DNA of 64,000 bases from Bryoerythrophyllum caledonicum (taxonomy: Eukaryota > Streptophyta > Bryopsida > Pottiales > Pottiaceae), in the NCBI GenBank assembly GCA_963971425.1, contig OZ020525.1, positions 13,026,187 to 13,090,186 of the forward strand, in the 5' to 3' direction. Each line of letters starts with the position of its first letter. Position 1 is the stretch's first letter. Position numbers and translations under genes: made by a program. Under the pieces are notes generated by a model. It was not told where the DNA came from. It saw only the letters and a list, made by a program, of their open reading frames with translations, and did no database searches. Of the stretch, positions 12,583 through 59,533 are shown in pieces.

Positions 12583-12764
12583 TCCACAGACGTCTTCTCT
12601 TGATCGCCTCGAGGATTTGAGTGTACACAAAATGCCACAAGGAAATTGAAGTATGAGCCTTTGATCCAGATCAGTATCGGAATGTACAGAGTTCCGTCGA
12701 CGTGAAAACAGTAGAATTCGGAAAAGAACGGCGATGAAATTATCGACAAGTTCTTGTAACTGAT

Positions 12765-13800
12765 CTGCACGCAATGAGAGAAATTATACTAGGTTAGAAA
12801 AACCACTGACCATTTGTGCCATAGTTTTAAACATGGACGGTAATCACAACCTGGGAGTCTGCATGCTGCGATCAACAAAAGTAGTGTTCTTATTAAGACA
12901 CACTAAGTGTAGCTATGTAGTGGGTGTATGGTTTTCATCTTTATTAAAAAAATTTGGTCTTAAATGTGATATTTCATTTTTCTATAATGACACCCAACAT
13001 CTAATATTTATAAATACTTGATAAATGTAAATATTTAATGTAAATAAATGTAATATATTAAAGTATAAATGTCAAATATAATGTTATAAATAAACGTAAT
13101 GTATAAATCTGATATGTGTAAAATATATGTAATATGAAAATAAATTAAATATTTAAATTATCAAATAATTATATAAATATATGAAATAAATATATGAATA
13201 AATAAATAATGAAATAGTAAAATATTTAATAAATTAATAATAAATGTTATGAATAAATAGATGTTAGTTCATCAAAATTTGCAATATTTTAATTGTTACG
13301 CACAACATATGTATATATAAGTTTATTTGATATTGAAATAAATGTAATTTATAAAAAAATAACTAAATGTATTATATAATCAAATTTTCATAACTTTATG
13401 TAATATATAACTTGTAATTAGCATCATAAAGGTCAATCATTACTTCATGGGTTTACAACTTGAAAGTTTTCATCGAGTTCAATCTTCACTATAAAGCTTA
13501 AGTGAATCCTAAACCGTGAACCCTAACACCTTGTGCTTAAGAGAAATAATTAGTGTATAGTGAGTCACTTTTCATACACCTTCTCTATGACTCACAAATT
13601 TATGTCCTCGTTACTATTGTCAAATTTACCTTATTGTGACCTCCAAACTGCATATCTTATTATAACCTCGAAATGACAGGCCTAATTACGACGCTAAGAC
13701 ACCACGCACTCTGAATTCTGAGGCAAATTCAGCTATCATCCTCAGACAACACCTCTGTGAGTAGAATGATCGGAGAAGCTCGATGTGAAAGTATACGAAC
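12765..13800 (-). other. Predicted 5'UTR intron of Ca2+-ATPase copy 1
   Basis: On the minus strand ctactcag|gttcgtatac forms a donor (GT at 13,800-13,799) and ctctcattgcgtgcag|atcag an acceptor (AG at 12,766-12,765). The same pair occurs at the homologous place in unit B, where the donor is a better consensus (CAG|GTACGT). This intron is 1,036 bp against 326 bp in unit B. The extra length is mostly AT-rich filler. This is inferred from splice signals and conservation only. Confidence 0.5.
12960..13420. repeat. AT-rich low-complexity filler in the intron of copy 1
   Basis: About 460 bases of aatgtaaata/aataaatgt-type sequence, more than 80% A+T and absent from unit B. It contains no gene. Confidence 0.7.
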
Positions 13801-15530: not shown

Positions 15531-16473
15531 ACCTTTAGAAGTCTTTGACAATTTCACACCAAAAACACATCAAAACTATTGATTCTCGTGCAATGTGCAA
15601 GGAAGCAAACCAAAACTCTTATTTCTAGTTTTAACTGTAGGGTCTAGTTAAGACGTAATAAGTAACATATACACTAAATTTCATGAACTTTGACCTCATG
15701 GATTGAAAGATAATAGTGTTTGAAGTAGAGAAAACGGCTGATAATCCTTTTTTCTGTTGAGTGGACCAGTTAGTTTTGACTTCACTTGGTGTTAAAAAAT
15801 TTCACTACACAAGGTCTGAATTTTTTACTATCATGTTAAGCATGATATTAGTTTCTTGTACACTAATTATTAGCAAAAGAAAAGTGGTGGAGCATATTCA
15901 AAAAAATTGTGTAAGGAGTGGAGGTTTAAAAATTGCCAATTTGAGGGTTTTTTTTTGTGAATTTGACATCTTTTAGAATGAGAATCTAGTGGTCAATAAG
16001 AAGGTTACACCACATCTTGTAGTAGAAAAAATAAAAAATGAAAAAATATGAAGATTTCTAAAATTTATGTGGAGAAGAGGAAGTTTTTTGGTACCTTGCT
16101 TGACAATGTGTGACAATGTGTGAACATGTTTGACTTGGATTAAAATTCTCTTTTTCAAAAGACAAGAAATGCTTTTTGACAATGTGAAAGGATATAATAT
16201 AATTTGGTAATATTGAATATCTCACATTTAATTGAGTGTCCTAGCAAAAGTTTTTGGAATTGCCCGACGTGCCCGCTTTTAAGCAAATTTTCTTAGTGAT
16301 GGGATAACTCTTTCTAGTAAATGTTCGACTTAGGAAAAAAATGAACCCACACAAAGTTTTCAGTAACGTCCATCCACAATAGAAATTTCAAAGAAGAATG
16401 TTGTAAATTGACACCATAGGAACTTGTCCAAACCTTTAAAAGTCTCCCAAGGGGACTTTTGGAAATTTAGGGG
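15531..16473. mobile_element. TTAA-family non-autonomous element (unit B), uninterrupted
   Basis: 943 bp. The left end is ACCTTTAGAAGTC after TTGA and the right end is AATTTAGGGG before TTAA (16,474-16,477). Its interior matches the interiors of 24,611-25,375, 28,806-32,513, 44,254-54,865 and 56,849-61,146, for example around cttggtgtcaaaaat and the cacattgtcacacattg stretch. It serves as the unbroken reference copy of the family in this window. It encodes no protein. Confidence 0.65.
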
Positions 16474-20092: not shown

Positions 20093-23000
20093 TCAATGAA
20101 TGCTGATGTCGACGTTCCGTGCCTCGTGAAGTCTCCCCGATCGCATCTGCGCACCGGAGCAATCACGTCGACTGCTGCCAACTTCCGTTGCCGCAATCCT
20201 CCGTCGCCTCAGCCGCAGACACGAAGCGCGGGGGAAGCACGAGATCTCGAGCAGGGGCGTCCTGGGGACGGGGACGCACTTGATGAGCACCGCGAGTGGC
20301 AGCGCCACGGATCCGATGGCCACGCACATCCCCCACCACTTGATCGCCAGCATCGTCGTGTTCGCGAAGCTGTTGAGGAACGTCACGATGATCACCTGGA
20401 AGAAGACGGTGATGGCGATGATCGCCTGGAAGAGGAAGTTGCGGTGGATGCCCTGGAACACGTTGAAGGTCTCCGGGCGGCGCGCGTTGATCTCGTTGAA
20501 GAGCTGGCAGAACACGAAGGCGTTGAAGATGATCGTGTTGCGCTCCAGGACTTGCTCGTCGTGGGTTCCCTTGAGTCCCAGAATCTCGATTCCGCGGTAG
20601 GTGAGGATCAACAGAACTGTGATCTGGTAGAGCGCCTGGCCGAAGATGTTGCGCCACATGATGTTCGTGATGAGCGGGTCTTTGCGGCCGATCGGGGCGC
20701 GGTCCATGAGGGCGTCCGTCGGCGCCTCGGTTGCGAGCGCGAGTGCTCCCATCGTGTCCATGATCAGGTTCACCCAGAGGAGTTGCACGGCTGTGAGCGG
20801 GACCTCGCCGGAGCTGACGGCGGCGACGAAGTTGATCGCGAGGGCCACCACGTTCACGGTGAGTTGGAACTGGATGAACTTCTGGATGTTTGCGTACACG
20901 GAGCGCCCCCAGCGCACGACCTTGACGACGGAGGTGAAGTTGTCGTCCAGGATGATGATGTCCGAGCTCTCTTTGGCGACTTCGGTTCCCGCGATTCCCA
21001 TGGAGAGGCCGATGTCCGAGGCTTTCAGCGCCGGCGCGTCGTTTGTGCCATCGCCGGTGACCGCCACGACCTCGCCGCGGTTCTTGAGCGCTTCCACGAG
21101 CTTGAGCTTGTCCAGAGGGGACGACCGCGCCATCACCGCGAGGTTGTCGAGGTCGGCGCTCCCCAGCCTCGCCTCGCTCCAGTTGCGGAAGTCCTTTCCC
21201 TCCACGACGAGCTGTGAGTCGTTGGTGAGGATCCCGCACTCCGCGGCTATGGCTTTCGCGGTGTAGACGTTGTCGCCCGTCACCATGCGCACCTTCACCC
21301 CCGCTCTTTGGCACTTCTCGACGGCTTCCTTAACGCCCTCTCTGCACGGGTCCTTGATCCCGGCTATGGCCATGAGGCAGAGCTCCTGGTCGGGCGCCGT
21401 CCAGTCTGACTCGCTCTCGGGAATCTGGCGCTCGTCGATAGAGCGACGCGCGAACGCGATGCAGCGCAGAGCTTGCGCTGCCATCCCCTGGATTATGTCG
21501 TTGAACTCTCGCCGCTTCTCGGGAGTCATGAGCTGCGGCTCACCGTTGGAATCCGTCCACCTGGTGCATAGGTCGAGGATGATCTCCGCTGCTCCCTTCC
21601 AGTGCAGCTCAACCTCACCGTCCGACTCCGCGCGTGACCTGAACACAACGCCGGCGCGCTTCTTCTCGGAGTTGAACGTCTCCACATGCAAGATCTCATT
21701 CCTCTGGCGAGTCGCTCGAAAGTCCATCCCCAGCGCGATCCCCCACGTGAGGATCGCTGCTTCGGTAGGGCTGCCCGTCACATCCGGCTTCGACTCTCCA
21801 TCTTTCTGCGGCGCCACATTGCCATTGCTGTTCAGACATATCGAATCCAGTAGCGACTTCCGCAGTCCCAAAGGAAGGGACGCAACCGAGTCCTCGCTCT
21901 TGATCCCCCCTCCCACGCACGCCTTGGTGACAGTCATCTTGTTGGTCGTGAGCGTCCCCGTTTTGTCGCTGCAGATGGTGGTGGCGGATCCCATGGTCTC
22001 ACACGCAGCGAGCTTCCGAACCAGAGACTTATCCGCCATCATCTTCCGCATGGAGTAGGCTAAGGTGAGCGTCACTGCCAGAGGCAAACCCTCGGGCACC
22101 GCCACCACGACGATCGTCACCGCGATCGAGAAAACGTGCACCATCTCCTTGATCACCTGCATCGCTCTCCTGTCCTTGGGAAGCGCGTTCTTGAACGTGA
22201 TTCCAAAGTAGCGCCCGATCAAGATGACCAACACAACCGATGCGACAACGAGTCCAACTGTCCCGATCAAGGTAGCAGCGCCGTTCAACCTCACCTGGAG
22301 CGGAGTCAGGTCGTCGGTATCAGCTGAAATGGACGCCATCACCTTCCCCCACTCGGTGTTGAGCCCCACCCCTGTCACTAGCATCTTCCCCTGACCATCT
22401 TGAACTTTGCATCCCGACAACAGAAACGGTTTGGTCTTGACATCCTTCTTCACAGGCATGCTCTCGCCAGTCATGGTGGACTCATCGATCGCCAGCGAGT
22501 GACCTTCAACAAGCACCCCATCGGCCGGAACTTGACCACCGATCGACAACGGCACAACGTCACCCACCACAAGGTCGAATATCGACACTTTCTGCCTCCG
22601 ACCTGCTCTCAAAACCTCCAGCTTGATGTTCTCCTTCTCCTCGTTCAAGTTTCGGAAATTCATTCCCTGCTTGTAATCGTTTCCGGCGGTGACGAAAATA
22701 ACTAGTAACACAGCAACGGCGATGCTGGTGCCCTCATACCATCCCTCTTTAATGCCCTCAGTCCATATCCCAGTTCCTAACGAGACTACTGCGCAGACCA
22801 TAAGTATATTGAGTGTCGTATCCTTGCAAGCGTCCCAGACGAAGGACAAGAAGCTCTTACTTTTCTTTCTGGGATAAGAATTGGCGCCGAACTCATCACG
22901 TCTCCTTTGCATCTGATGTTCACTTTCGTCTAGCCCAAATTCGCTGTCGGTGAGCAGTTTGCTACATAGACCTGTAGTTCCACCTAATCGCTGGAAGTCA

Positions 23001-23239
23001 TCTAGATTTTCCCGGTCCTCAAGCAATTGGGTTAGCTCAGACACAGCAACTCCGAAGCAATCATCCGGTTGTATGCGGAAATTTCTATTTCGCTGACACC
23101 TAAATAATCGTAAACAAGCCTGTATTGAAATCGAAACGGCCTTGAATGATAAAGGTCTTGGTCTATCAATCAAGATGGACTTGAACTCTGGTTGGATCTC
23201 CATGTGTGCCATTTTAGATCTAGTCCATGAACTTGCCAT
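20093..23239 (-). CDS. ACA: Plasma-membrane-type (IIB) Ca2+-ATPase, ACA family, copy 2
   Basis: 1,048-residue near-twin of copy 1, also uninterrupted. It starts at the ATG at 23,239 (MASSWTRSKMAHMEIQ). The catalytic features are all kept: TGES, PEGLPLAVTL, DKTGTLT (Asp at about 425), TGDGTNDAPALK and ten predicted membrane segments. About ten substitutions separate the two proteins over the shared ~1,020 residues, for example SEQQ/SEHQ, GGNTYPR/GANSYPR and GGEIKSED/GGGIKSED. Residues 10-35 differ much more (PEFKSILIDRPRPL here, PQFESLKEKARSRRC in copy 1), just before the putative calmodulin-binding segment. The two pumps could therefore differ in regulation. Both appear functional. Confidence 0.95.
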   Translation of the reverse strand: MASSWTRSKMAHMEIQPEFKSILIDRPRPLSFKAVSISIQACLRLFRCQRNRNFRIQPDDCFGVAVSELTQLLEDRENLDDFQRLGGTTGLCSKLLTDSEFGLDESEHQMQRRRDEFGANSYPRKKSKSFLSFVWDACKDTTLNILMVCAVVSLGTGIWTEGIKEGWYEGTSIAVAVLLVIFVTAGNDYKQGMNFRNLNEEKENIKLEVLRAGRRQKVSIFDLVVGDVVPLSIGGQVPADGVLVEGHSLAIDESTMTGESMPVKKDVKTKPFLLSGCKVQDGQGKMLVTGVGLNTEWGKVMASISADTDDLTPLQVRLNGAATLIGTVGLVVASVVLVILIGRYFGITFKNALPKDRRAMQVIKEMVHVFSIAVTIVVVAVPEGLPLAVTLTLAYSMRKMMADKSLVRKLAACETMGSATTICSDKTGTLTTNKMTVTKACVGGGIKSEDSVASLPLGLRKSLLDSICLNSNGNVAPQKDGESKPDVTGSPTEAAILTWGIALGMDFRATRQRNEILHVETFNSEKKRAGVVFRSRAESDGEVELHWKGAAEIILDLCTRWTDSNGEPQLMTPEKRREFNDIIQGMAAQALRCIAFARRSIDERQIPESESDWTAPDQELCLMAIAGIKDPCREGVKEAVEKCQRAGVKVRMVTGDNVYTAKAIAAECGILTNDSQLVVEGKDFRNWSEARLGSADLDNLAVMARSSPLDKLKLVEALKNRGEVVAVTGDGTNDAPALKASDIGLSMGIAGTEVAKESSDIIILDDNFTSVVKVVRWGRSVYANIQKFIQFQLTVNVVALAINFVAAVSSGEVPLTAVQLLWVNLIMDTMGALALATEAPTDALMDRAPIGRKDPLITNIMWRNIFGQALYQITVLLILTYRGIEILGLKGTHDEQVLERNTIIFNAFVFCQLFNEINARRPETFNVFQGIHRNFLFQAIIAITVFFQVIIVTFLNSFANTTMLAIKWWGMCVAIGSVALPLAVLIKCVPVPRTPLLEISCFPRASCLRLRRRRIAATEVGSSRRDCSGAQMRSGRLHEARNVDISIH

Positions 23240-32235: not shown

Positions 32236-32579
32236 TACAATGCAAAAATTTGATACAAAGTGAAGTCAAAGTCTGCTGATCTACTCAATGCAGGAAGAAA
32301 ATGAACCATTGTTTTGACTATAAACACTAAAATCTATCAATCCGTGCGGAGGATTGCAACAAAAATTTCATGGCATGTTTATATAGAAGTCTATTTTAAG
32401 ATATTATGGTTGAAAATCCAAAATTCACTTTAAAATGTGATTTTCATGTCTCTTTTTGGCAGTGGCAGTTATGGACTGGTTTTAGAGCGAAAGTGGTCGT
32501 GGTCCTTTAGGGGTTAAAGATCAATATGTAAAATTCATAATTTTAGATTTATATAGGTAGCTATTACGGTAATATTATA

Positions 32580-33246
32580 TCCTTTCATATTGTCAAAGAA
32601 CATTTCTTTTCTTTAGTGAAAAATAGTCTTTTAACCCAAGTCAGACATATTCACACATTGTCACACATTGTTGGGCAAGGTACCAAAAAAACTTCTTCTT
32701 CTCCACATTAGACTTGGAGATCTTCATACATTTCACTTCTTTTTTTTCTACTACAAGATGTGATGTTAACCTTCTCATTGACAGTTTGGACTTTCATTCT
32801 AAAGCATATCAAATTCACAAAAAATTAAAATGTGAATTGGCAATTCCCAAACCTCCACTTCTTGCACAATTTTTTTTTGTATGCTACACCCCTTCTCTAC
32901 CCCTAAAAATTAGTGTTCAAGGAACTAATAATCATGCTTGACATGATGGTAAAGGATTTCGACCTTGCCGTAGTGCAAGACTACTACACCAAGTGAAGTC
33001 AAAGTCCGATGATCCATGCAATGTAGGAAAGAAAATAAACCGTTTTCTCCACTTCAATCACCATAATCTTTTGATCTGTATGGTCAAAGTTTATGAAATT
33101 TTGAGAGTATGTTACTAAGTATGTCTTGATTGAGATCCGGCTATCAGAACTAGAAATAAAAGTTTTTGTTTCCATCCTTACTCATTGCACTAGAATCAAC
33201 AGTTTTGAAGTGTTTCTGGTGCAATATTGTCAAAGAAATTCAGGGG
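32580..33246. mobile_element. TTAA-family fragment, left end missing
   Basis: Family-typical interior in the reverse orientation (cacattgtcacacattgttgggcaagg at about 32,650-32,680). The right end CAGGGG is followed by TTAA at 33,247-33,250. No left terminus is found next to the preceding element. Confidence 0.5.
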
Positions 33247-43831: not shown

Positions 43832-44620
43832 CGCTGCAAATGAGTACAAGCAAGGTTTCTGAGAACAAGTGCAGCGTTCGGGAAGAGAACCTAAAGCCGT
43901 TGAAGCAGGTTCATTTACCAATTCTGGTTATGCTCTTACCTAAGATCTAGTACAGGGGTAGATGATGATAGGTTTAGGAGGCTTAGGGTTTGGCGCTCAC
44001 GAAAGAGGCCGGACAAGAAGCTTGAATTGTGTTTTGAGTGCAGTGACAGGAATGAGTGCAGTGACGGTTTTGGGAAGCGTGTGACCTAGGGTTTAAGTCG
44101 TGACGGTTTTGGGAACCGTATGACCTAGGGTTTAAGTCGTGACGGTTTTGTATGCGGAGTCCAAAGCCGACATTGTTCACACCATGTGTAGATATGGAAT
44201 GTGGGAATGGGATAGATGTTGGTTGCCCTTGAACCACCAGTTTAATCCTTTGACCCCTAAAGGACCAAGTGTCAAAAATGGGCTTTTTGAAAGCTCGGTC
44301 AAGTTTCTATGCTGCCAATTTCCAACATCCTCTTTGTAATTCTTACCATAGAAAGGCATTACCAAGACCTTAGTGGGAAAACAATTTTTTCCTAAATTGG
44401 ACATTTGATGAAAAAGTTATAGGGTTTTGAATTTCAAATGGAGAGAACGGGCACCTCGGGCACCTCTAAAAACTTTTGCTAGGACAATCTATTGAATGTA
44501 AGATTTTCAATACTCCCAAGTAATATTGTTCCCTTCATATTGTCAAAAAAAAAGTTCTTGTCTTTAGTGAAAAATAGCATACCAACTCAAGTCAAACATT
44601 TCCACACATTGTCACTCATT

Positions 44621-44978
44621 TGTCACGGGACGTGGCGTCGAGGGTCTCTCCGTATCGTAGATTTTAGCGTAGATTAGTTTGTTACTAATCTACGTGTGTT
44701 TAGGGACGAACGGCGGCGCACCGTTTTTATCCGTGGATGATTTTCATCCACTTAGGGTTGTATGCGTGTGCGTATAGCGCCGCACACGTCCTTGACTTGA
44801 CGTCTTTGTCAAGTCAAGCTTTGTGAGTAAGGTTAGAGAGTGATTAGTGAGATCTTTGCTTGTAAGTGATGGTTTATCATTGGTGAAAGCTCCGCATTCT
44901 CTACTTTAGTTGCACTCGTTGATTCTCCCCTTGTGGAGTGCGTGTCGCTTGACTTCTTGTGGAAAACACATGTGATTC
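44621..44978 (+). repeat. Terminal repeat part A1 of the Ty3-type element
   Basis: 358 bases starting TGTCACGGGACG, matching A2 (53,822-54,179) with about five differences. It lacks the B part that follows A2. Confidence 0.9.
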
Positions 44979-45179
44979 ACTTGACAAAGACCCTACATTT
45001 TCTACAATTAGATCTCGTTTTATGGAGCTAGAAATTGTGAGAAAACTTGTGGGTACTTAGCATGATGTTGTAGAGCGCGTTTAGAGGAAGCTAATGCGAC
45101 AAACGGCGTGCGATTTGAACAATTTTTGAAGAAGTTGTGAGCGGTAGAAGATTGGAGCAAGGTGGATAAGCTTTTGGAC

Positions 45180-45265
45180 CTGCTGTGCAAATTTTTCATC
45201 CGCCGCGCGATTTTTCATCCACGGTGGTTTTTCATCCACTGCGGCAGTTTTCATCCGCTGGGTCG
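45180..45265 (+). repeat. Leader repeat of TTTTTCATCC units in the Ty3-type element
   Basis: Four close copies of tttttcatccrc (near 45,187, 45,209, 45,226 and 45,248) in the untranslated leader. Related copies occur in the A terminal repeats (gattttcatccactt). Confidence 0.7.
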
Positions 45266-46213
45266 CAAATCCGTTGGGGTACGTATTCCCGTTAGGGACC
45301 CTAAACCGTGCCGAAGTTCCTAAAACCGTCACTTTTGGGCTGAAATTTCAGCACATCCCTGGACCAAAACATCAAAATTTTAACTTTTGCAATTTTGATT
45401 ATTTCTGGATTCCGATTACGGATTTGAGTTCGCAGAGGAATTATAAGCCTTATAGAGCAGTAAAATTTAGGTTTTTAGCACTTTCAAAAACCGACATTTT
45501 TTAGGTGTCTTCAAAACAATCACATGTTTATGTGACCTATAAAAAAAAATTATAAAAAAAAAAAAGTGTTTAGAGTCTAACTTCGGAGGTAATTAGCTAG
45601 TGCATTTTTACTCTAGTTTTGAGTGAAACTTGCTTTTATAGTTAAGGAATCTCGTCATTTATCCAATTCTAGTATTGGATTGACGTTTTGGCACGTTTGT
45701 CACCCATGGTTTGAATTTCGTTGGGGGACTAGTGTTTTTGAACTCCGTGACCATATGATTCTATTACCTCCTTAGTTTTAAGACATTAGGGGCACACCTT
45801 GCGGTGTTTCTCTTTGATTTGCAGGTTTTGCGACTTTGAGGCATCCACTGCAGGCGTGTGCCAGTGGCGCTGTCTCTTTCATTTTCCTGCTTTTATGTTG
45901 TTGGGGGAGAGGATCGGGTTTTGATTTCTGGATTCTTGTGCGGTACCTCCCCCGTGTTGCGGGCTTGTTGCCGGTGTTTTCCGGTGGCCCCATTTCTTGT
46001 TGTTCCAGTTAATGATAGGGTACCGTAGGGGTGAAGTCGGATTTATGGCCGGCAAGACCTTTCTATGTGGGGGGATGTGGTTGGACCTGTGGTAGCCGGA
46101 GGTGATGACCGGTGATCCACATAACTTGGTGATTTTGCAGGTGCAGGTTGCCCGTTCGTACCCTTACCCTTTAGATAGTACTCGTAGATAGATCCCGAGG
46201 TGGTTTTTTGTTC

Positions 46214-47470
46214 ATGGTGAGTACCTGGAATCGGTATTACCGCTCTCCCTCACCAAACCACTCGGAGAGTGCTTCCACCACAGACTTTGGGCCAGGGTCG
46301 GATACCGACGAGGCTTTTGAGCCTGTTTCGGCGTTGGATACCGACCGTAGGCTTCGGGTCTGGAGTGTGGGCACGTTTGACGACATGGAGGACGATCACC
46401 GTCATGTCGTGCGAGACAGGTTCTCGGGACGGGCTGGGGGCATCTCCCTACCCGATTGGCGTCTCCGATTCCAAACTTGGATGAAGGAGAAGCGCCAGCG
46501 GACGCCGTCGTTCAACGATTGGTACGCGTTCGAGGTTTTGCCCCAGCATTTGGAGTTGGAGGCACTTCAGACATATGGGAGGTGGACCACGCAGCACGAG
46601 GCAGAGTTGCGCCCGGTTGAGGAGTATTGGCGCCAGCGTGTGGAGTTGGTCACTGCACTCAAGGAGAGTGCGGTTGCTCAATTCTCGACTTCCACCGAGG
46701 AACCCATGGAGGAGAAGAGTTTCCTCGGTGAGGACTGCAAGGGCAAGGGTGTTGCCATTGTGGGCGAACGAGCTGGCATGAGGGCCATGTCTCGTTTGGC
46801 CGTAACCACACGTGCAGCATTGGTGGCGGTTGGCAACCCGCCAGCCTTCGATCCTTTGGCGCAGTTCATGGCGCATCTGGAGATGGAGTACGGGGGGTTT
46901 CGGCGCGATCAGATGCACCGCATCCAGGACTTCCGCCGTGAGAAGGAAGACAAGCCACGCACCATGTACACACGGTTGGCACGGTTGGCGGCGGAGGCTG
47001 GTGATGTCTTTACGGAGCGCCAACTTGTGAAGATTTTTATCTCCAAGCTCGACAAACGGATGGTAGAGTTGATCAGTCCGCATTTGCTCTTCCGGTACCA
47101 CGGCAACGCGACCTTGGCTCAGGCGTTCGCCGAGGTGGAAGCGCTTGACCGGGCGTTGGGTGTGAGCGAGGCCACAGACTTGGTCACGTCGCTCATGGAT
47201 GCTCCGAAGCCCAAGAAGCTTGCTACGGCGACTGGTAGCTTGGCAGAAGCACAACCTGAAAAGGTTGTGCATTGTTGGGCTTGTGGAGAGGCCGGTCACA
47301 CCAAGGGGGACCCCAATTGTCCGAAGAAGAAGGAGACAGTGGCAAGGAAGGCCAAGCCCAAGACCGAGGCGGCCAAGCTTACGGAGAAGACTGGGAGCAA
47401 GGGGAAGAAGCCTGTGACATGCTCTCACTGTGGCAAGCCTGGCCACAGTGATGAGAACTGCTTTTCTCTT
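46214..47470 (+). other. Gag-like region with two CCHC zinc knuckles
   Basis: A capsid-like helical region is followed by two nucleic-acid-binding knuckles, CWACGEAGH...C at about 47,272-47,320 and CSHCGKPGHSDENC at about 47,420-47,462. They are separated by a Lys-rich linker. Confidence 0.8.
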
Positions 47471-48239
47471 CACCCAGAGAAGCGCCCAGGATCTTCGGCT
47501 GTTGGATCGGATGTCGTGAAGTCACTTCAATCCGAATTGGCGGAGTTGAAGAAGCAGATGAGCGCGATGGCTTCTTTGGGGCAAGTGGTAGACACACGGC
47601 CTGTGGTGACGGATCAGGGCTCATCTTCAGCCTTAGATCGCTACTTGTATGGCGCTTCCGGGGAGGTGGTGGCAGCGGTTGCCACTCGTGCTCAGACCAT
47701 TACACAGGCGGTAGCACCTTCTTCCACTGTGCCGGGTAGTAGCGGTCGTTCACGCCATGCGGGTTTGCCGGACCACATTGGTCAGTCCCGGCTACCTCTT
47801 TCGTTCAGCATCGCGGATGCGGCTACTTCTATTGCCGCTCCCACTTCGATTCCGGTCCCACCGATTTCTTCCAGTCCTGGAGATGCTGCACACACCTTGG
47901 CGTATAAGGTGTTGCAATTGCCGGTGTTTGCTGGTGTGGACTTTCTTACACCGGATTTTCAACCATCCGGTATATTCCATTTGGCGGGTAGTATGTTGGA
48001 AGGCAAGGTGTCCATTCCGTCGTTGGAGGTGTCACAGGCAGTGACCGCTCCACCCACTGAGGAGGATTTTGTGGCAATGCGGGCCAAGTTCGCGGCGGAG
48101 GCTATTTCCGCGTTTGAGGCCAATGCCACTTCCACAGCTATGGAGCAGTCATCCGGGGATCGGGCCTTGATCTCTGGAGTGGCTTATTTGTCTGACGTTG
48201 CAGCCCGGTCGCCATGGGAGCGACGTAGTGTGCGTCCAG

Positions 48240-48650
48240 GGGTGGTACGTTTGGTGAATGACGATGGAGTCATGGTGGTAGGCCGTACGGATGGCAACTC
48301 CACTCGAGCTACCCCTCTACGTGTTATGTTGGACTCCGGGGCTCAGCCAGTAATGATTGGCAAGCAACTAGCCCAGGATTTGGGTCTAGGTGCTTTGGAC
48401 CTCGAGCCTTGTCCATTCACGATTGTTACATCGGTTGGGGGCACGGAGAAGGCCATGGGCTACACCCGACATCCGTTGCAGTTGATGTTTGGCGTGGGAT
48501 CTGGTCCATTGTTCTCCCATGTCTCCCTTCAGTGCGCTGTTACTAGCGCCACCAACTACGATATTTTGGTGGGCCAGCAGGCACTATATCCACTTGGATT
48601 TGGGGTGGATAACTGGACGGAGGAGGCCTGGATTAGGCCAGGGTGGTTTG
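48240..48650 (+). other. Retropepsin-like aspartic protease domain
   Basis: VMLDSGAQPVMIGKQLAQDL (Asp-Ser-Gly at about 48,332) is the active-site motif, followed by a flap-like region and ILVGQQALYPLGF, the usual second conserved stretch. Confidence 0.8.
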
Positions 48651-48999
48651 CTGGTGATGGCAGGAAGGAGCTCATCTCCGTAGTCTTCGCAGCTAGCGCG
48701 GTGACTTCGACGACAGACGCTATGTTTGGGTGTAGTGCTCTGGCATCAAACTTGCCGTGTGCTTCTTCACTTTTGGAGGAGGCATATGCATTTATGTCTG
48801 TGATGGAGGATTCACGCGAGCACCTACCATTGGCGATCCCTGCCCGTCATTGCAAGGATCCGCTTCCGCCGTGGGGGACACCGTTGGAGCTCACTTGTCG
48901 TAGTGGAGAGATCGTGGATGCTCTTGATGCTCCACTGCCTTCAGTGGATTCTTCCACTCCGTTGTTGGCTCGTACTATTCAGTGGCGACCACCGAATGA

Positions 49000-49960
49000 G
49001 GGTATTACCCTTGTGGAGTTATTTGCCGGTATCAGTACGGGGCTCGCGGCTGTGTTGGAGGCCGGGCTCAAGGTACGACGGTATATCCACGTGGATACTG
49101 GCTTTGCAGCCAACCGTGCCGCTCACCATCACATTCAACGTCTTCTGGCGTTGTATCCAGAGCAGTTACCCTCTTCTGCGATTCGAGGGTATTTTGGCAA
49201 GTTGCCACGTGATGTGACGTTGATCAGTGAGGATGATCTTCGCCGGTTAGGTCACGTGGACTTGGTGATTGTCGGATGGCCTTGCCAAGGCCATTCACGG
49301 GCGGGAAGTGGACGTGGCTTGGATGATCCACGGTCGGGTCTCTTTACGGATTTGCTCAGGCTCGTCCAGTGGTGGATTACCCACCAATCGACACCACCGG
49401 GGTACATTTTTTAGAATGTACCCCCATTGGGGGATACACGGACGAAAGTGCGTGAGGATGGGGCGTACATCCATCACCTTCTTGGTCCCCCTACGTTTGT
49501 TGATGCCGCAGCGTTGGGATCTTACGCCCATCGGCCACGTTGGATTTGGACCAACATGGCATCATCCACGACGCTCACTTCTACACTTGCTCAAGTGCAA
49601 CGGCCCGTGCGCCGTGAGGTCGATGACATTTTAGACGACCACCGTGTTTCCACGGAGGTTACGAAGGATGATGAGCCACCATTGGCGGTGGTCAACCGCG
49701 TTGGTTTCACTCGGGGGGCATTTCCCACTTTGATGTGCTATCCAGGCTCTTTTGCCTTCAGGTCACGCGGTCCGGGCATGGTTTGGGATTCTTCTTCCCA
49801 CACTTTCGAGGAGCCTTCTGCCGATGAGAGGGAGCGGGCGATGGGCTTTTTGACAGGCACCACCGCCGCACCGGATATCTTTGAGGGCCAACGCCGTTAT
49901 TTGTTGGGTCAAGCCATTGACCTCAACACCGTTGTTTGGATATGTGGCCTCTGTTTCGCC
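49000..49960 (+). other. C5-cytosine methyltransferase (DNMT3/DRM-like) domain in the retrotransposon
   Basis: Motif I: VELFAGISTGLAAVLEAG, the S-adenosylmethionine-binding loop. Motif IV: VDLVIVGWPCQGHSRAG, with the catalytic Pro-Cys at about 49,280. An NVP motif VI core, motif VIII-like AHRPRWIWTNM (compare AHRARYFWGN of DNMT3), and ERERAMGFLTG plus RRYLLGQAIDLNTV for motifs IX-X. The spacing and the motif I and VIII wording resemble the DNMT3 class more than DNMT1 or bacterial enzymes. It sits between protease and RT. Such domains add a methyl group to DNA cytosines; here it could mark the element's own DNA or its targets. Confidence 0.85.
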
Positions 49961-50399
49961 GCTCAACGCCGTTGGAGTGACCATCCACGCGTGTTGGGGG
50001 CAGACTCTGATGGTCAGGGGGCAGCGGTGCCACATCTCACAGAGATCGAGGAAGCGGAGTTGCTATTTCGATTGAAGAGACATGCAGCTGAGGAGCTTCG
50101 TGTTCAGCGTGTCTTTGCAGCCTTGGCAGAGGACTTTGGCCATGAGGATGCTCGAGATATCTTTTCCCAGTTTTATCATCACGACACGGGATTTTCTGTA
50201 GATTCTGTGAGTGAAGGGTCTGGGGGCATTAATGCCCTCTCTGCTACCAAGTAGCAATCACCGGCCGTGCCGGTACGCGGTGAGTCTTCTACGGTGGAGA
50301 AGGAGACCACGGAGTTTGATGATTGGCCTTTGGATTTGGGGCCACATCTTACCGGTGCCGAGGCACGAAGGGTACGAGCGTTTATACGTTCGTATCGTA

Positions 50400-51130
50400 G
50401 TTGTTTTGCCTTTAGTCTCCATGATTTGTTGGGCTACAGAGGCAAACCAATTCACATTCAGTTGGAAGATGACCACCCGATCTTCCGACGACCGTACAAG
50501 CTCAGTCTTTCTGAGAAAGTTGGGGTTCAAACTCGTTGTCAGGAGTTGTTGGACGCCAGCTTGATTGAGCTCTCTAACGGCGAGTACGCTTGTGCCACGG
50601 TGATGCCATCGAAGAAGGACATCTTTGGCAACTGGACGGAGAAGCGGATGTGTGGGAATTATAGGCCGGTCAATCGTAAGACCAAGTCGGATCGGTATCC
50701 CATGTCCACGCCAGAGGAGTTGTTTGATGCGGTGGGACACGCCAGAGTATTTAGTACTCTGGATTTGCGGTCCGGTTACCACCAGTTACCATTGATGGTG
50801 GACGACTGGGTGAAGACCGCGTTCTGGGGAGTTGATCTGGATGGGAGAGATCAGCTCTACCATTGGAAGTTTCTCCCATTTGACCTCAAGAACGCACACG
50901 CTGAGTTTCAGAGGGTGATGGACCGGGTGTTGACCGGTTTACCGTTTGCCCGATGCTACATTGATGATGTTATCATTTTTAATAGAAGCCCACAGGAGCA
51001 TGTGAGGCATCTTCAGGCGGTGTTTGAGAGGTTACGGCAGTGGGAATTGCGCTTGCACCATGGCAAATGCAAATTCTTCCATGACCGGTTGCCATACTTG
51101 GGACATACGATTGTTCCAGGAGGTCTTGGC
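50400..51130 (+). other. Reverse transcriptase domain (Ty3/gypsy type)
   Basis: Ordered motifs: a KLGFK/LSEKV-type start, RMCGNYRPVNRKTKSDRYPM, FSTLDLRSGYHQLPL, FLPFDLKNAHAEFQRVMD and the catalytic YIDD at about 50,957-50,968, then FERLRQWELRLHHGKC and LPYLGH. Confidence 0.9.
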
Positions 51131-51379
51131 GTGTAGCAGGCGAAGGTTGACGCGCTGCAGAAGATCCCAGCCCCAATCGACGTGTCGCGGCTCAGAGCTT
51201 TTCTTGGCCTGGCGAATTACTATCGCCGGTTTGTCAAGAACTTCAGCTTGATTGCCAAGCCGTTGACTATTCTCACGGGGAAGGATCAGCCATGGACTTG
51301 GGGACGGGAGCAGCAACAGCAGGCGTTTGTTACTTTGAAGCTGAAGCTCGGTTCAGCGCCTGTACTACGACGTCCAGAT

Positions 51380-51760
51380 GCTACACGGCCTTTCCACTTG
51401 CACACAGATTGGAGTGCAGTAGGATTGGGAGCCGTGTTGACTCAAGAGGATGATGAAAGACGAGAGTACGTTGTGGCGTTCGCTTCTAGGAGCAACAACA
51501 ACGCGGAGTCCAACTATTTGTCCTATGAGGGGGAGGCCTTGGCCGCGGTTTGGGCCATAGCTCATTTTAGGCCCTACTTGTATGGGCAGCGTTTTACTTT
51601 GGTGACCGACCACCAGCGTTTGAAGTGGCTCATGGAGTCTGACAAGCTTACTGGCAAACTTGCCAGGTGGGCTTTGTTGCTCCAGGAGTATGATTTTGAG
51701 GTTGTACACCGGGCGGGCATCACGAACTTGGATGCGGATGGTCTATCTCGCAATCCAAGT
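51380..51760 (+). other. RNase H domain of the Ty3-type element
   Basis: HTDWSAVGLGAVLTQ, EGEALAAVWAIAHFRPYLYG, TLVTDHQRLKWLM and NLDADGLSRNP are the standard Ty3/gypsy RNase H motifs, with Asp, Glu and Asp in place. Confidence 0.9.
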
Positions 51761-52099
51761 CCATCGGAGGAGGATTTGACTGGTGCCAGGTGGCATGGGG
51801 ACTGTGACATGGAGTCAGTCCCGGGGTGGCATGCAGCAGCCTACCTCACATTGATGTCAGGATCCACATCGACGTTGCCTGACATGGCAGCAAATGAGGA
51901 ACCGGACAAGGCCCAGGTTGTTAGCGACGTGTGGGAAGACATTCCAGTCTTGCACAAGCTACAACATGGCACACTTCCGCCCGCTCTTTCGGCCATGGAG
52001 CGCGATCGAGTTGGACACCGGATAGCGAGGTTCCGTTGGGAGAACGGCCTTCTATTTCGGTTGTGGCCGGATGGAACTAGGCGCATAGTTCCCAGACCG

Positions 52100-52760
52100 G
52101 ATCAGAGGGCTTCGTTGGTACGGCAAGTACACGAAGACCTTGGTCATTTTGGTGTGCGACGGACTCATTCGATGTTGCGCAGTCAATATTGGTGGACCGG
52201 CATGTATCAGCAGGTGGCCATGTACGTTTCACGGTGTGAAGTCTGTGATCGGATCAGATCCAGCTTCAACACATTGTCACCACAGTTGCAGCCTTTGCCC
52301 ATTATGGGTTTGGGCTACCGTTGGTCTCTGGATTTTGTCGGGCCACTTGTTGTCATCCCATGTGGAGCCAAATACGTGTTGGTGATGGTGGAGCACTTCA
52401 GCAAGTGGATTGAGCTTGTGGCATTACCACAGAACTCCTCGGAGTTGGCGGCCATGGCATTCCTTGACCGGGTGCTCGCTCGTTTTGGAGCCGCAGCTGA
52501 GGTGTTGACTGACCAAGGGCGTGAGTTCCTTGGTGCTTTCGAGGCTTTGTGCACCAAGGCTTTGATTGACCACCGTACGACTTCTAGAGATCATCCGGAA
52601 GCGGACGGTTTAGCGGAGCGTGTGGTTCAGACCGTCAAGCGTGGACTACGGAAGTATGGATTACTTCAGGGTGGCCACCGTGATTGGGATCTGATGATAC
52701 CATGGATCGCCATGGGATACCGGTTTAGTCGGCAGGCCTCTTTGGCCGCTTTCAGTCCGT
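52100..52760 (+). other. DDE integrase of the Ty3-type element
   Basis: An HHCC zinc finger (H...GHFGVRRTH...CEVCD) is followed by the catalytic core with SLDFVGPL, LTDQGREF and a Glu in HPEADGLAERVVQ. Confidence 0.9.
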
Positions 52761-53221
52761 ATCAGTTGTACGGACGGGAGCCGATTCTACCCAGTTCTGT
52801 ACGGGAGAAGTTGGCCCCAGTTGTGGACTTGGATGATCCAGAGGTCTGGATCCAGTGTCTGCGTGACCGAGCGGAGTTCTTTAAGCGGGCCATGCAAATG
52901 GCCATGGAGAATTTATCCATCGCTCAGCATCGCGACACATTACGGTACGCTCACATTCGCAGCGGCGCTTATCGACCTCAGTTGCGACGTTTCTCCACTG
53001 GAGATTACGTTTATTTGCAACGTGAGGCGCCTACGACGTTGGACGTCAAGGTTGGGCGCACCATTCTTCGTGTGAAGGATGTGTTGCCTAGTGGCATCTT
53101 GTTGCTGGAAGGCAAAGATGGCCGGGAGTGTCGTGAGCACTCCAAAAACTGCGCGCCCTGCCATTTGCTCATTGATGGCTCCGTGCATCCTGAGTTGGCC
53201 GTTGTGCCACAGGGTCTTCCG

Positions 53222-53365
53222 TGTTTTGTGTGTGGTGAGAAGAAGGGTGCGGCTACTATGTTGCTTTGTGACCATTGCCAGCGTGGTTGGCATATGGCTT
53301 GCTTGACGCCGCCTCTTTCTACTCTACCGTCCGAGGATTGGACTTGCCCTCGTTGTCGGAGGTCT
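53222..53365 (+). other. PHD finger at the C terminus of the integrase region
   Basis: CFVCGEKK, LLCDHCQRGWHMACL and WTCPRCRR form a complete C4HC3 PHD finger. PHD fingers read histone H3 tails. In this position it could steer integration, as chromodomains do in chromoviruses (inference). Confidence 0.85.
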
Positions 53366-53714
53366 TCGAGTCACGTTTCATCCGATGAAACGGCTTGAAT
53401 TCCTCATAGACTTGTCATTATGTGGTGCATTTCCATCCAGTTGGAGTTCCTGGTTTCGGTTCAAGGATAGGCAACGTGGAGATTGACCAAGGGATTGGCA
53501 ACAAAATTGCCTAGGGCGATTAAAGATGGGGCTCACATTGCACCCGGCCTACCATCTCTTTGTTACTTCTTCATATGCTTATTGATTCGACGACGGCGAC
53601 ATCTTTGGCTGCATGCATACAGTTGTTGCAGCGACATCACCGTGCCGTTTAGTCTTATTAGTGTTGTTTGGTCCTAGCTGGATAGAAGGTCTCTTTATCC
53701 GCTAGGGGGGGCAC

Positions 53715-53819
53715 TTGAGGGTGTATTACGTATACTTGTTTTAGTGTATGTTTTTCGTTTATTTGATGTTGGTTAGGACTCTCGATCTATTGTGGTTATC
53801 GATCTTTCTTTACACGACA
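53715..53819 (+). repeat. Terminal repeat part B1 of the Ty3-type element
   Basis: 105 bases starting TTGAGGGTGTATTACG and ending TTTACACGACA, matching B2 (54,181-54,285) with one difference. It follows a G-rich polypurine-like run and is separated from A2 by two bases. Confidence 0.9.
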
Positions 53820-53821
53820 GC

Positions 53822-54285
53822 TGTCACGGGACGTGGCGTCGAGGGTCTCTCCGTATCGTAGATTTTAGCGTAGAATAGTTTGTTACTAATCTACGTGTGT
53901 TTAGGGACGAACGGCGGCGCACCGTTTTCATCCGTGGATGATTTTCATCCACTTAGGGTTGTATGCGTGTGCGTATAGCGCCGCACACGTCCTTGACTTG
54001 ACGTCTTTGTCAAGTCAAGCTTTGTGAGTAAGGTTAGAGAGTGATTAGTGAGTTCTTTGCTTGTAAGTGATGGTTTATCATTAGTGAAAGCTCCGCATTC
54101 TCTACTTTAGTTGCACTCGTTGATTCTCCCCTTGTGGAGTGCGTGTCGCTTGACTTCTTGTGGAAAACACATGTAATTCCTTGAGGGTGTATTACGTATA
54201 CTTGTTTTAGTGTATGTTTTTCGTTTATTTGATGTTGGTTAGGACTCTCGATCTATTGTGGTTATCCATCTTTCTTTACACGACA
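53822..54285 (+). repeat. Terminal repeat parts A2 and B2 of the Ty3-type element
   Basis: A2 (53,822-54,179) joins directly to B2 (54,181-54,285). A2+B2 begins TG and ends CA like an ordinary LTR of 464 bp, but the left terminus of the element has only the A part. Confidence 0.9.
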
Positions 54286-54869
54286 CATTGGTGGGCAAGG
54301 TATCAAAAAAAATTCTTCTTTTCCACATAAAACCTAGATATCTTTATATTTTTCACTTTTTATTTTCTCCACAACAATATGTGGTGTAAACCTTCCTATC
54401 GACCATTCGGATTATCAATCTAAAACATATTGAGTTCACAAAAAATTAAAGTGTGAATTGGCAAATTTCGAACCTCCACTCCTTGCACAATTGTTTTAAC
54501 ATGCTACACCCATCCTCTACTTCTAAAAATTGGTGTATAGGGAACTAACATCATGCTTAATAAGATGGTAATAGATTTAGACCTTGTGTAGTGCAAAAAT
54601 TTGACACCAAGTGAAGTCAAAGTCTGTTGATCCACTCAACGGAGGGAAGAAAATGAACCATTTGCTTGATTTCGAACACTATAATCTTTCAATCCGTGCG
54701 GTAAAAGTTTATGAAATTTTGGTTGTATATTACTTTATATGTCTTAATTGAGATCCTACGGTCAAAATTAGAAACAAAAGTTTTTGTTTCCTTTGTTGTT
54801 CAATGCACTAGAATCCAAGAATTTTGAAGCGTTTTTGGTGTAAAACTCTCCCGGTACCTTAGGGGTCAA

Positions 54870-57504: not shown

Positions 57505-59533
57505 CCCACCAGCAAGTTTACGTTCAAATTTTCGAACTCCAAGTTCCAGTGAAAAAAAACTGTAACTTTGAAAAATAAAATCTCCCAATTAACTCCAAAC
57601 TTCACGAAACTGCCACATATTTGTTTAAAAACAAGCTAACTACATTCCACATGTCATTAACATACAAATTTCAGCCATGTGTATGAGAAAAATCAGATTG
57701 CATTAATTGCTCTCCAAGTTGTGTTTGTGGCTCCTAAAATGTGAAGACAACATCCACTCTTCTTGAGACAACACAGTTTAGATTTTTGTGAGTTTGAGCT
57801 TCATATATGGATCTTCAAGAACCTTTCAACACAAAACATGCTTCATTCAAGCAATGGAGGAACTTGTGGATACATTCTGTGAGTGTTTTTGGTGAGTAGT
57901 TACAATTCTAGTGGTGTTATTTCTTGAGCTTGCAACTTTGCACCAGTAGTAGAATTTGAAGGATTCATTACTCCTTGAGGATTTTGGTGGGTACAACATC
58001 AAGTGGGAGTGTTGAGCATCACTAGAAGTGCTCAACATCAACTGGATCAGCTCAACATCAACTGGGAGTGCTCAATTGGGAGAAAATAATTCACTCAGAT
58101 TGGTAAGTGTTCATGCTTGCATTCTCAACTCAAATGGTCTTTCATAGCTTTATGTGATATGGTCTACTGGCCATGATGAGCAAAATAGTGAATTGAGATG
58201 GTATATGGTGACGTTGTCTTCATTAATTCAAAGGATATGGTCATGAAATAAGAGGTGTTTTGTTGCTGACTTTATTGATGTTGTTGGTGGGATTTAGAGC
58301 TATGAAGACTAGAATGCTAAGTGAGGGTGAGAGGGGGATGATCATTGGTATGTGTACTGCTGGCATGTCAACACATCGTATTGCAACAGAATTAGGAATG
58401 ACACAGTCCACAGTGTTTACTATTTGGAAGAATTTTCAAGAGCGTGGAACTACACAACCATTAAAGTCAAGCGGTAGGCCTCCAAAGCTCAATGTGCGTG
58501 ACAAGAGGGTGCTTGGCCGTATTTTATCTAAGAATCGTCGCTTACCACTTGCTGCAATCAGAGAGAAGATGCATGTGAAGGTTTCCCCCACCACATTAAA
58601 GAAGGCGATGAACAATATCGGATTTTCTAACCGGGTTGCTGCAAAGAAGCCGTTTCTTAGTAAAGAGCACATGGCAAGGAGATTGGCATTTGCCAAAGAA
58701 CACCGACATTGGACAATATCTGATTGGAAGAACGTAATATGGACAGATGAATCTTCATTTGAAATTGGGAAAAGGTCGAGCGCCGTGAAGGTATGGCGAA
58801 AGTCACATGAACGTTTTTCTTTGGATTATTTAGCACCATCTTTCAAATCCGGTCGTTCATCAGTGATGGTTTGGGGTGCATTCACCGGTTATGACAAGTG
58901 CCAACTTGTTATAATTCCACCGGATAGACGGAAAGGTAGGGACTTTGTTGATGTAGTTTATGAAAGTCGCTTGAGTGGCTTCTATTTTCTCTACGATCAC
59001 CCTCAGACACTTATACTCATGGAAGATGGTGCCCCGGTACATCGTAGCAAAGAATCAAGTGATTGGAGGCAAGCGCATGGCATAAGAAAGCTTTTATGGT
59101 CCGCAAACTCTCCCGACTTAAACCCCATTGAAAACCTATGGAAGATTGTGAAAGATACTATCCAAAAGGAAGAGCTACCGCAAAATAAAGAAGAATTAGT
59201 CAACACAATTGAAAGGGCATGGGAAGAGGTGTCTTTAGAGACAATTGAAGTTCTCTTTGCAACCATGCCTCATCGTATGAAGGCTGTAATCAAAGCTAAT
59301 GGTGGTAGCACTAGATGGTAGATAGTTTGTCAAAAAATGCTATATTTACATATAAATCTATAATTTTTTGTGTGAATTCCTAATATATTAATAAAGTAGA
59401 TTTCATTATCTCTCCGATGCACTTTGCGGTTTGTGATTTGGATCATTTTTGAGCAAATGGTGGCAATTTGAAATTGGAGACCAGTGTCTTGTTTCTGCAA
59501 AATGAGTGCTGTGAACGTAAACTTGTTGGTGGG
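57505..59533 (+). mobile_element. Tc1-like (DD34E) transposon, apparently intact
   Basis: 2,029 bp with TA on both sides. Inverted tips: CCCACCAGCAAGTTTACGTT at the left and the matching CCCACCAACAAGTTTACGTT read from the right end. It carries one full-length transposase gene. The 750 bases before the gene hold only short repeats (ctcaacatcaactgg near 58,000-58,075). It abuts the fold-back element at 59,536 with a single TA between them. Confidence 0.88.
58302..59321 (+). CDS. Tc1-like DD34E transposase
   Basis: 339 residues from the ATG at 58,302 (MKTRMLSEGERGMIIGMCTA). An in-frame ATG at 58,278 would add eight residues. Two helix-turn-helix modules (about residues 8-55 and 65-110) with a GRPP-type basic linker (KSSGRPPKLN) bind the inverted repeats. 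The catalytic core has VIWTDESSFE, LILMEDGAPVHRS and SPDLNPIENLW, with 34 residues between the second Asp and the Glu, i.e. DD34E. It ends NGGSTRW. Length and motifs are complete, so the enzyme could be active. Its dead cousin lies at 30,658-31,669. Plant mariner-like enzymes are normally DD39D, so this subtype is unexpected. Confidence 0.92.
   Translation: MKTRMLSEGERGMIIGMCTAGMSTHRIATELGMTQSTVFTIWKNFQERGTTQPLKSSGRPPKLNVRDKRVLGRILSKNRRLPLAAIREKMHVKVSPTTLKKAMNNIGFSNRVAAKKPFLSKEHMARRLAFAKEHRHWTISDWKNVIWTDESSFEIGKRSSAVKVWRKSHERFSLDYLAPSFKSGRSSVMVWGAFTGYDKCQLVIIPPDRRKGRDFVDVVYESRLSGFYFLYDHPQTLILMEDGAPVHRSKESSDWRQAHGIRKLLWSANSPDLNPIENLWKIVKDTIQKEELPQNKEELVNTIERAWEEVSLETIEVLFATMPHRMKAVIKANGGSTRW

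Follow-up and report, generated by a model that had tools for sequence, protein, structure and literature searches.

A high-copy Ty3-type retrotransposon family of an apparent land plant encodes a DNMT3-like methyltransferase before a leaky-type stop codon

Retrotransposons that carry DNA methyltransferases (DNMTs) are already known and have been in print since 2018, when KnitGypsy-Dnmt3 of Klebsormidium nitens was reported (de Mendoza et al., PMC5890265); a 2025 survey repeats the finding for streptophytes and dinoflagellates (PMC12344493). As described in 2018, KnitGypsy-Dnmt3 combines the Gypsy domain set with a Dnmt3-related, unrearranged DNMT in the polyprotein, has repeats structured as in a DIRS element (Fig. 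4 legend) and is under purifying selection (ratio of non-synonymous to synonymous substitution rates, Ka/Ks, < 0.2; PMC5890265). SymbioDIRS-Dnmt3 of dinoflagellates, reported there as an independent capture, likewise joins a Dnmt3-type enzyme to a reverse transcriptase (RT) in a polyprotein between DIRS-type split repeats, but has a tyrosine recombinase and no DDE integrase (PMC5890265). Here we analyse a stretch of 64,000 nucleotides of genomic DNA (the window) in which positions 44621–54285 are, as judged from sequence, a disabled copy of a high-copy Ty3-type family of the same kind as KnitGypsy-Dnmt3.

Compared by description, this family differs from KnitGypsy-Dnmt3 in its apparent land-plant host, in its 339 junction sites, in an enzyme that closes the Gag–protease frame before a leaky-type TAG and in an integrase that ends with a PHD finger. 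The land-plant host, with relatives in Marchantia and Sphagnum, looks new, as do the PHD finger and the TAG, which is the family's own and lies in a tobamovirus-type leaky context in both of its subfamilies. A repeat order A–coding–B–A–B with 4-bp target duplications, the inner B–A joint being the two ends joined, also looks new. The PHD finger does not appear in the 2018 main text (PMC5890265), and both it and the leaky stop may also exist in K. nitens. Among open-licence papers of PMC (supplements and figures lay outside the search), none that we found describes such a family in bryophytes, the leaky stop or the PHD finger, which argues only weakly that they are unreported.

A DNMT3-like methyltransferase in a Ty3-type element

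The element encodes, in order, Gag, protease, a C5-methyltransferase, RT, RNase H, a DDE integrase and a PHD finger (Table 1), and Pfam recovers the Ty3/Gypsy order of RT, RNase H and integrase. Its frames were translated in separate pieces with stops left unmended; open reading frame (ORF) 1 presumably begins at a methionine that we placed from relatives starting with MVST. The enzyme is unrearranged, lies within the polyprotein and forms the last part of the Gag–protease frame. Pfam DNA_methylase (PF00145) matches the piece encoded by 48998–49411 (E = 4.7e-10, 39.8 bits, cut-off 22), and NCBIfam TIGR00675 matches at 5.8e-12, under its curated cut-off. The second piece, 49415–50251, has no Pfam match of its own up to E 0.1; over its length it is 83% identical to P0001, a protein annotated with PF00145. 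No ADD or PWWP domain was detected by Pfam in the window pieces.

When one family member was compared with the PDB, the top match was DNMT3B (6.2e-8). A 12-member profile placed DNMT3B and DNMT3A first (1.4e-21, about 80 bits), followed by a DRM-type chain (2.1e-12, DRM being circularly permuted and so handicapped in this comparison), HhaI (1.1e-10) and DNMT2 (1.5e-7); the 57 PDB sequences listed include no chain under the name DNMT1 or CMT. By these comparisons the enzyme is a DNMT3-like C5-methyltransferase, with the animal enzymes DNMT3A and DNMT3B as its best match among solved structures. Motifs I, IV, VI and VIII–X follow one another in that order in the DNMT3A/DNMT3B family. Motif IV reads PCN in the DNMT3B chain, whereas the family here has PCQ (ECQ in six relatives). 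Of 36 aligned rows of relatives, 25 have GWPCQG and 6 have GWECQ as motif IV, whose cysteine is kept in 34 (the other two, Marchantia gene models, are gapped there); motif VI reads ENV in all rows but one, which has ENA. The catalytic Cys of motif IV and Glu of motif VI are kept in the family; motif VI of the window copy holds a stop.

Pfam domains and the PDB profile comparison agree with a preliminary description of the window that had placed a DNMT3-like enzyme between protease and RT of a Ty3-type element: the methyltransferase is recovered by a hidden Markov model above its cut-off and by comparison with solved structures. Its statement that the methyltransferase motifs stand in order holds for motif I, motif IV and the later motifs, and breaks down at motif VI, which the TAG at 49412–49414 interrupts. 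The enzyme had been given an end at 49960; its frame in fact occupies 48998–50251. The layout had also been called otherwise standard for Ty3, which the family TAG at 50252–50254, the PHD-ended integrase and the A–coding–B–A–B repeats contradict. The linked PHD finger that it proposed is found by Pfam in both subfamilies, including copies L009 and L010 of subfamily B; tblastn with the window PHD piece had matched copies of subfamily A only, those of B being recovered later by Pfam. The preliminary description missed the disabled state of the window copy, the family-wide stop at 50252 and the unusual repeats, and its core reading is still supported. Chromodomain Gypsy elements carry a histone-reader-like domain at the integrase C terminus; here the reader is at the same place, but it is a PHD finger.

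A high-copy family under purifying selection

The host genome (437 Mb in 894 contigs) contains two subfamilies, A (the window copy, L019, L028 and others) and B (L009, L010 and others), which are 55% identical in the methyltransferase core, 60% in RT, 66% from RNase H to integrase and 51% in the PHD finger. A pattern for the junction between the two ORFs, with exact flanks and a free codon at the stop, occurs at 137 sites for A and 202 for B (0 for either with the reversed-pattern control). A PF00145 profile search of the genome gave at least 123 matches (best of 1055 candidates), and a search with the subfamily A domain gave at least 100 (best of 2447 candidates), all of which span 363 or more of the 418 residues; the enzyme is thus not confined to the copy first described. 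In nine of the 100 best A-domain matches the frame is 1353 codons long and the match contains no stop. We picked 20 further copies from the same genome for long frames, so that their state is not the genome average, and in 9 of these both frames are long (measured between stops, ORF1 has 1353 codons or more and ORF2 1041 or more).

The enzyme is under purifying selection, because the ratio of non-synonymous to synonymous substitution rates (dN/dS) is well below 1 in two comparisons, one pair per subfamily (L028 with L029 and L009 with L010; A against B is saturated). The respective values are 0.09 and 0.04 for the methyltransferase core, 0.12 and 0.09 for the whole domain with its tail, 0.06 and 0.04 for RT, and 0.13 and 0.10 for the PHD finger.

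The ratio of observed to expected CpG is 0.50 in L010 and L018 and about 0.8 in L009, L016, L019 and L028, a split within one genome that may stem either from distinct histories of methylation or from codon use. The PF00145 search, in which only the best candidates were scored, identified no cellular host DNMT3. Its best match, L001 (G000:C14:16014858-16018817), was rejected as a cellular DNMT because it adjoins an IS4/5-type transposase; it scores 218 bits as a Dcm-type methylase, lies within a plant scaffold of 22 Mb and is regarded as bacterial, through contamination, misjoining or gene transfer. A scan of viral contigs gave no match.

A leaky-type stop follows the enzyme

The window copy contains three in-frame TAG codons, at 49412, 50252 and 51134. 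Comparison with other copies identifies the first and last as lesions and the one at 50252 as the family's own; that at 49412–49414 occupies the position in motif VI where other copies have the Glu of ENV. In 17 of the 20 picked copies, the long first frame stops at a TAG past the methyltransferase with the second frame in register; the exceptions are L014 (TAG and other damage), L013 (junction lost) and L027 (CAG). The junction reads AAG-TAG-CAA-TCA in subfamily A and CAA-TAG-CAA-CCA in B, so that the flanks of the stop differ and the hexamer after it remains within CARYYA.

We surveyed this junction in 47 sources, from which L031 (no methyltransferase match) and L029 (not from the host) were dropped; of the 45 host copies, L002, L013 and L032 lack a recognisable junction. 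Among the 42 compared, TAG is present in 41 and CARYYA follows in all, once as CAGTCA. The TAG persists in 19 of the 20 A copies and in 22 of the 25 from B, and we therefore rejected the stop at 50252 as a lesion. Genome-wide, where intact flanks are required, TAG is found in 98 of the first 100 listed of the 137 A junctions (the other two being TTG and TAT) and in 94 of the first 100 listed of the 202 B junctions (otherwise three TAA, two CAG and one TAC). A separate environmental contig, L029, encodes an enzyme with 92% protein identity and has the same TAG-CAATCA junction. This contig (CADCWO010000201.1) is filed under an uncultured cyanobacterium, and the same 127 bases stand at both of its ends, as expected of a circular assembly path; our guess is that it comes from a plant in a sample of soil crust.

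Tobamoviruses use UAG-CAR-YYA as their type I readthrough signal (PMC3542737), and in a plant reporter the tobacco mosaic virus form allowed 32% readthrough (PMC2754532). Here too UAG is followed by CARYYA and a continuing frame; UAG with CARYYA behind it is expected at about 1 in 1,500 random in-frame stops (by arithmetic, with equal base frequencies). The likeness extends over the stop codon and the next six bases; the setting differs, in that the stop lies between a methyltransferase and an RT in a Ty3-type element. Given the position of the first methionine of ORF2 (codon 117 in L028, codon 82 in L010), simple re-initiation looks unlikely. We infer readthrough at the family TAG. With a TAG in leaky context after the enzyme in both subfamilies, the enzyme should therefore be made at the level of Gag.

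Unusual repeats with 4-bp target duplications

All five elements whose ends we analysed (the window copy, L019 and L028 of subfamily A; L009 and L010 of B) have the layout A–coding–B–A–B. Plain identical long terminal repeats (LTRs) at both ends were found in none of them: the left end is A and the right end is B–A–B. Each has TG...CA ends and perfect 4-bp target duplications, read by eye (CATT, AGCA, GTGC, AGGA and CCTC), and each has a purine-rich tract directly 5' of B1. The inner joint, ACGACA-GC-TGTCA, is in all five the right end and the left end joined with two extra bases. TGGTATC, which we take to be the primer binding site for initiator methionine tRNA, was not found in the 360 bases around the end of A1 in any of the five, the search being for this tRNA only. 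In the window copy A1 and A2 differ by 5 mismatches and one gap. Both repeat pairs of L010 (372 and 233 bp) are identical, and the family has therefore moved recently.

When the flanks of the window insertion are joined, they match uninterrupted repeats elsewhere in the window in six alignments (best 656 bp at 80%), which fixes the ends of the element. The insertion lies in a dispersed repeat, about 80% identical between copies, with uninterrupted copies at 15552–16275, 32569–33221 and other places in the window. PAT and DIRS elements also have split direct repeats, some with a methyltransferase, but they lack both integrase and target duplication (PMC4157794). We accordingly rejected the window element as a DIRS element, despite its split repeats, on its rve integrase and 4-bp duplications. 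From the repeat structure we suggest that a two-LTR-like circle (the LTR being B–GC–A) is cut at one of its inner joints.

Table 1 Features of the retrotransposon copy in the window
Feature	Position	Strand	Remarks
Target site duplication CATT, left copy	44617–44620		
Terminal repeat A1	44621–44979	+	starts TGTCACGGG
ORF1, first piece: Gag, protease, start of methyltransferase	46214–49414	+	ended by TAG 49412 in the window copy
Whole Gag–protease–methyltransferase frame	46214–50251	+	
Two CCHC zinc knuckles of Gag	47273–47320, 47420–47461	+	by motif; Pfam zf-CCHC E 0.028, under cut-off
Aspartic protease motif DSGAQP	48332–48349	+	Asp_protease_2 1.9e-4, 22.5 bits, under cut-off 24.3
DNMT3-like C5-methyltransferase and tail	48998–50251	+	broken in the window copy by TAG 49412–49414 in motif VI
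Motif I, LVELFAGI	49010–49033	+	
Motif IV, GWPCQGHS	49274–49297	+	
AHRPR	49526–49540	+	
ERERAMGF	49826–49849	+	
LLGQAID	49901–49921	+	
TAG between ORF1 and ORF2, then CAATCA	50252–50254	+	leaky-type context UAG-CAR-YYA
ORF2: RT, RNase H, integrase, PHD	50255–53398	+	broken in the window copy by TAG 51134–51136
Reverse transcriptase	50639–51112	+	RVT_1 4e-24; YIDD at 50957–50968
RNase H	51308–51691	+	RT_RNaseH 2.2e-36, RT_RNaseH_2 7.4e-33
Integrase, H2C2 zinc domain and rve core	52097–52642	+	Integrase_H2C2 3.7e-17, rve 1.8e-13; DDE motifs at 52325, 52505, 52601
PHD finger, integrase C terminus	53222–53356	+	Pfam 2.3e-10
Polypurine-tract-like AGGGGGGGCA	53704–53713	+	just before B1; putative role
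Internal repeat B1	53714–53819	+	
GC dinucleotide between B1 (ending GACA) and A2 (starting TGTC)	53820–53821	+	same joint in 5/5 elements
Internal repeat A2	53822–54179	+	
Terminal repeat B2	54180–54285	+	ends ACGACA; 1 mismatch to B1
Target site duplication CATT, right copy	54286–54289		

Relatives and host

The C-terminal piece of the enzyme, used as a query, matched 82 proteins, mostly on jgi, ena or lgn contigs taken as metagenomic; Sphagnum jensenii (a fragment, 57% over 36% of the query) and Marchantia are named among them. An ORF1-length query matched 32 proteins, including one from Closterium and six Marchantia polymorpha gene models. No protein named K. nitens was among the matches of these two queries. 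The Marchantia models (P0219, P0222, P0224, P0225, P0229 and P0230) are filed as hypothetical or uncharacterized (for example, Mp_4g09160), and because they are relatives, counts of plant DNMT genes may include transposon enzymes. P0204–P0217, protein records of 1252–1451 residues on contigs of 4.4–10 kb, end 78–141 residues past the methyltransferase core and have no RT match. In a tree of relatives, B clusters with Marchantia (support 0.75) and A with environmental contigs; given this placement, the two host subfamilies appear to be old.

The more distant P0221 also has a PHD finger at its C terminus. Another protein, P0233 (1631 residues), has a PHD finger and a stretch, 39% identical to the methyltransferase, that lies between RNase H and integrase and has no Pfam match at 0.001; either domain shuffling or another capture could account for this arrangement.

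The genome has 46 matches to the DYW deaminase (PF14432), of which 38 are on scaffolds C1–C15, including C14, which carries the window. DYW proteins mark land plants, and on these matches the host appears to be one; with the plastid loci described below, we read it as a bryophyte, probably a moss. On the DYW matches we consider a dinoflagellate or charophyte host unlikely. The preliminary description had held that a host belonging to neither group would extend the phenomenon, and the DYW matches indicate that it does.

Dose, position and a proposed role of the enzyme

Elements that write the mark used against them pose a puzzle. We put at roughly 0.55 the probability that the enzyme is made with Gag by way of the leaky TAG, is packaged, and acts on the DNA of its own element, methylating it before integration or as it takes place. 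Most ribosomes would stop at the TAG and release Gag–protease–DNMT, and a minority would read through and add RT, RNase H, integrase and PHD finger. The leaky-type stop thus predicts a dose, with the enzyme packaged in particles at the level of Gag and in excess over RT. There, or in the nucleus, it would methylate the new double-stranded DNA of the element, so that each new copy would already be marked upon integration. The likeliest gain would be tolerance of a newcomer that resembles the methylated chromatin already in place; the PHD finger may direct the integrase to a histone state. Methylation of cDNA was proposed by the 2018 authors for the DIRS type, and DNMTs of SymbioDIRS, which are related retrotransposon enzymes, methylate CG in yeast (PMC5890265); dose and position are what we add. 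As the family numbers hundreds of copies and both frames are open in some of them, it is testable whether new copies arrive methylated.

Several observations weigh against this proposal. KnitGypsy-Dnmt3 gave no methylation in yeast, a result that its authors call inconclusive (PMC5890265). Supply of the enzyme at the level of Gag is not needed everywhere, because the distant relatives P0221, P0223 and P0231 run from DNMT to integrase in one frame with no stop. The genome-wide junction counts require intact flanks and alone are no proof of selection on the stop. The CpG ratio differs between lineages of the same genome (L010 0.50, L009 0.78, L028 0.80), so no simple methylation scar is seen.

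The enzyme might instead promote silencing of its own family in cis and in trans, which would reduce the damage done by high copy number and let host and element persist. This option was listed by the 2018 authors, in whose data KnitGypsy-Dnmt3 copies carry CHG and CHH methylation in the host (PMC5890265), and the methyltransferase frame is still open in many copies here. Selection acting on the element, however, would hardly maintain a trait that reduces transposition, and neither the 339 junction sites in this genome nor the 100% identical repeat pairs of L010 look like strong limitation; we consider such self-restraint improbable. We hold it equally doubtful that the enzyme, instead of methylating DNA, has RNA as its substrate or serves to bind nucleic acid as part of the Gag precursor. 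Its fusion to Gag–protease, and production at the level of Gag if the stop is leaky, would suit such a role, as would the negative yeast result; against it, the profile strongly favours DNMT3A and DNMT3B over DNMT2-type tRNA enzymes (1.4e-21 versus about 1e-7) and the catalytic motifs are retained. A passenger domain without function is the least credible explanation and very improbable; in its favour are the two disabling stops of the window copy. The enzyme has dN/dS well below 1 in both comparisons, occurs in two subfamilies that have diverged to 55% identity in its core and in at least 100 A copies, and has relatives in Marchantia, Sphagnum (the fragment), Closterium and environmental contigs; in addition, six matches to uninterrupted repeats of the same window span the insertion point. 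Chance insertion, an assembly artefact and a single odd copy were rejected on these copy counts, dN/dS values and empty-site matches.

The repeats raise a further question. In the textbook view, elements with a DDE integrase insert as linear DNA bounded by plain LTRs, a picture that an A–coding–B–A–B element with target duplications fits badly. The enzyme could serve a special replication route by marking or protecting the circular or end-joined DNA intermediate that the repeat order implies, and in all five elements the inner B1–GC–A2 joint is indeed the joined termini. Tyrosine-recombinase retrotransposons, several groups of which have split direct repeats, sometimes carry a methyltransferase (PMC4157794, PMC5890265). 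Ngaro and VIPER, however, have split direct repeats and no methyltransferase (PMC4157794), SymbioLINE-Dnmt is a long interspersed nuclear element with no LTRs (PMC5890265), and the basis here is five elements; we rate this role slightly below self-restraint or action on RNA. A speculative combination, unlikely to about the same degree as those two, is that a Ty3 element with a DDE integrase integrates from a circle cut at the inner joint, and that a methyltransferase supplied at capsid level through the leaky stop marks this circle. If so, retroelement methyltransferases would track a split-repeat, circle-using life cycle irrespective of whether the recombinase is of the tyrosine or the DDE type, which would explain why a methyltransferase has been captured more than once.

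Plastid sequences and other genes of the window

Plastid loci occur in a row in the assembly: atpB (recognised by eye), rbcL, trnR(ccg) and accD (Carboxyl_trans), an order that fits a land plant and is no proof of one. The rbcL groups with a Fissidens-named sequence and with an SM-prefixed one that we take to be Spirogloea, and alone did not separate a moss from the latter. Two rbcL types are present (L054 versus L055 and L056), which shows that plastid DNA from more than one source is present in the assembly. In L054, the residues His20 of rbcL and Arg in both atpB and accD resemble sites of C-to-U editing.

Elsewhere in the window, two closely similar long frames on the minus strand, about 10.7 kb apart (9421–12774 and 20093–23239), encode P-type cation ATPases by Pfam. 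On the plus strand, a 353-residue open frame at 58260–59321 encodes a Tc1/mariner-type transposase (DDE_3 1.5e-13, HTH_Tnp_Tc3_2 1.4e-12).
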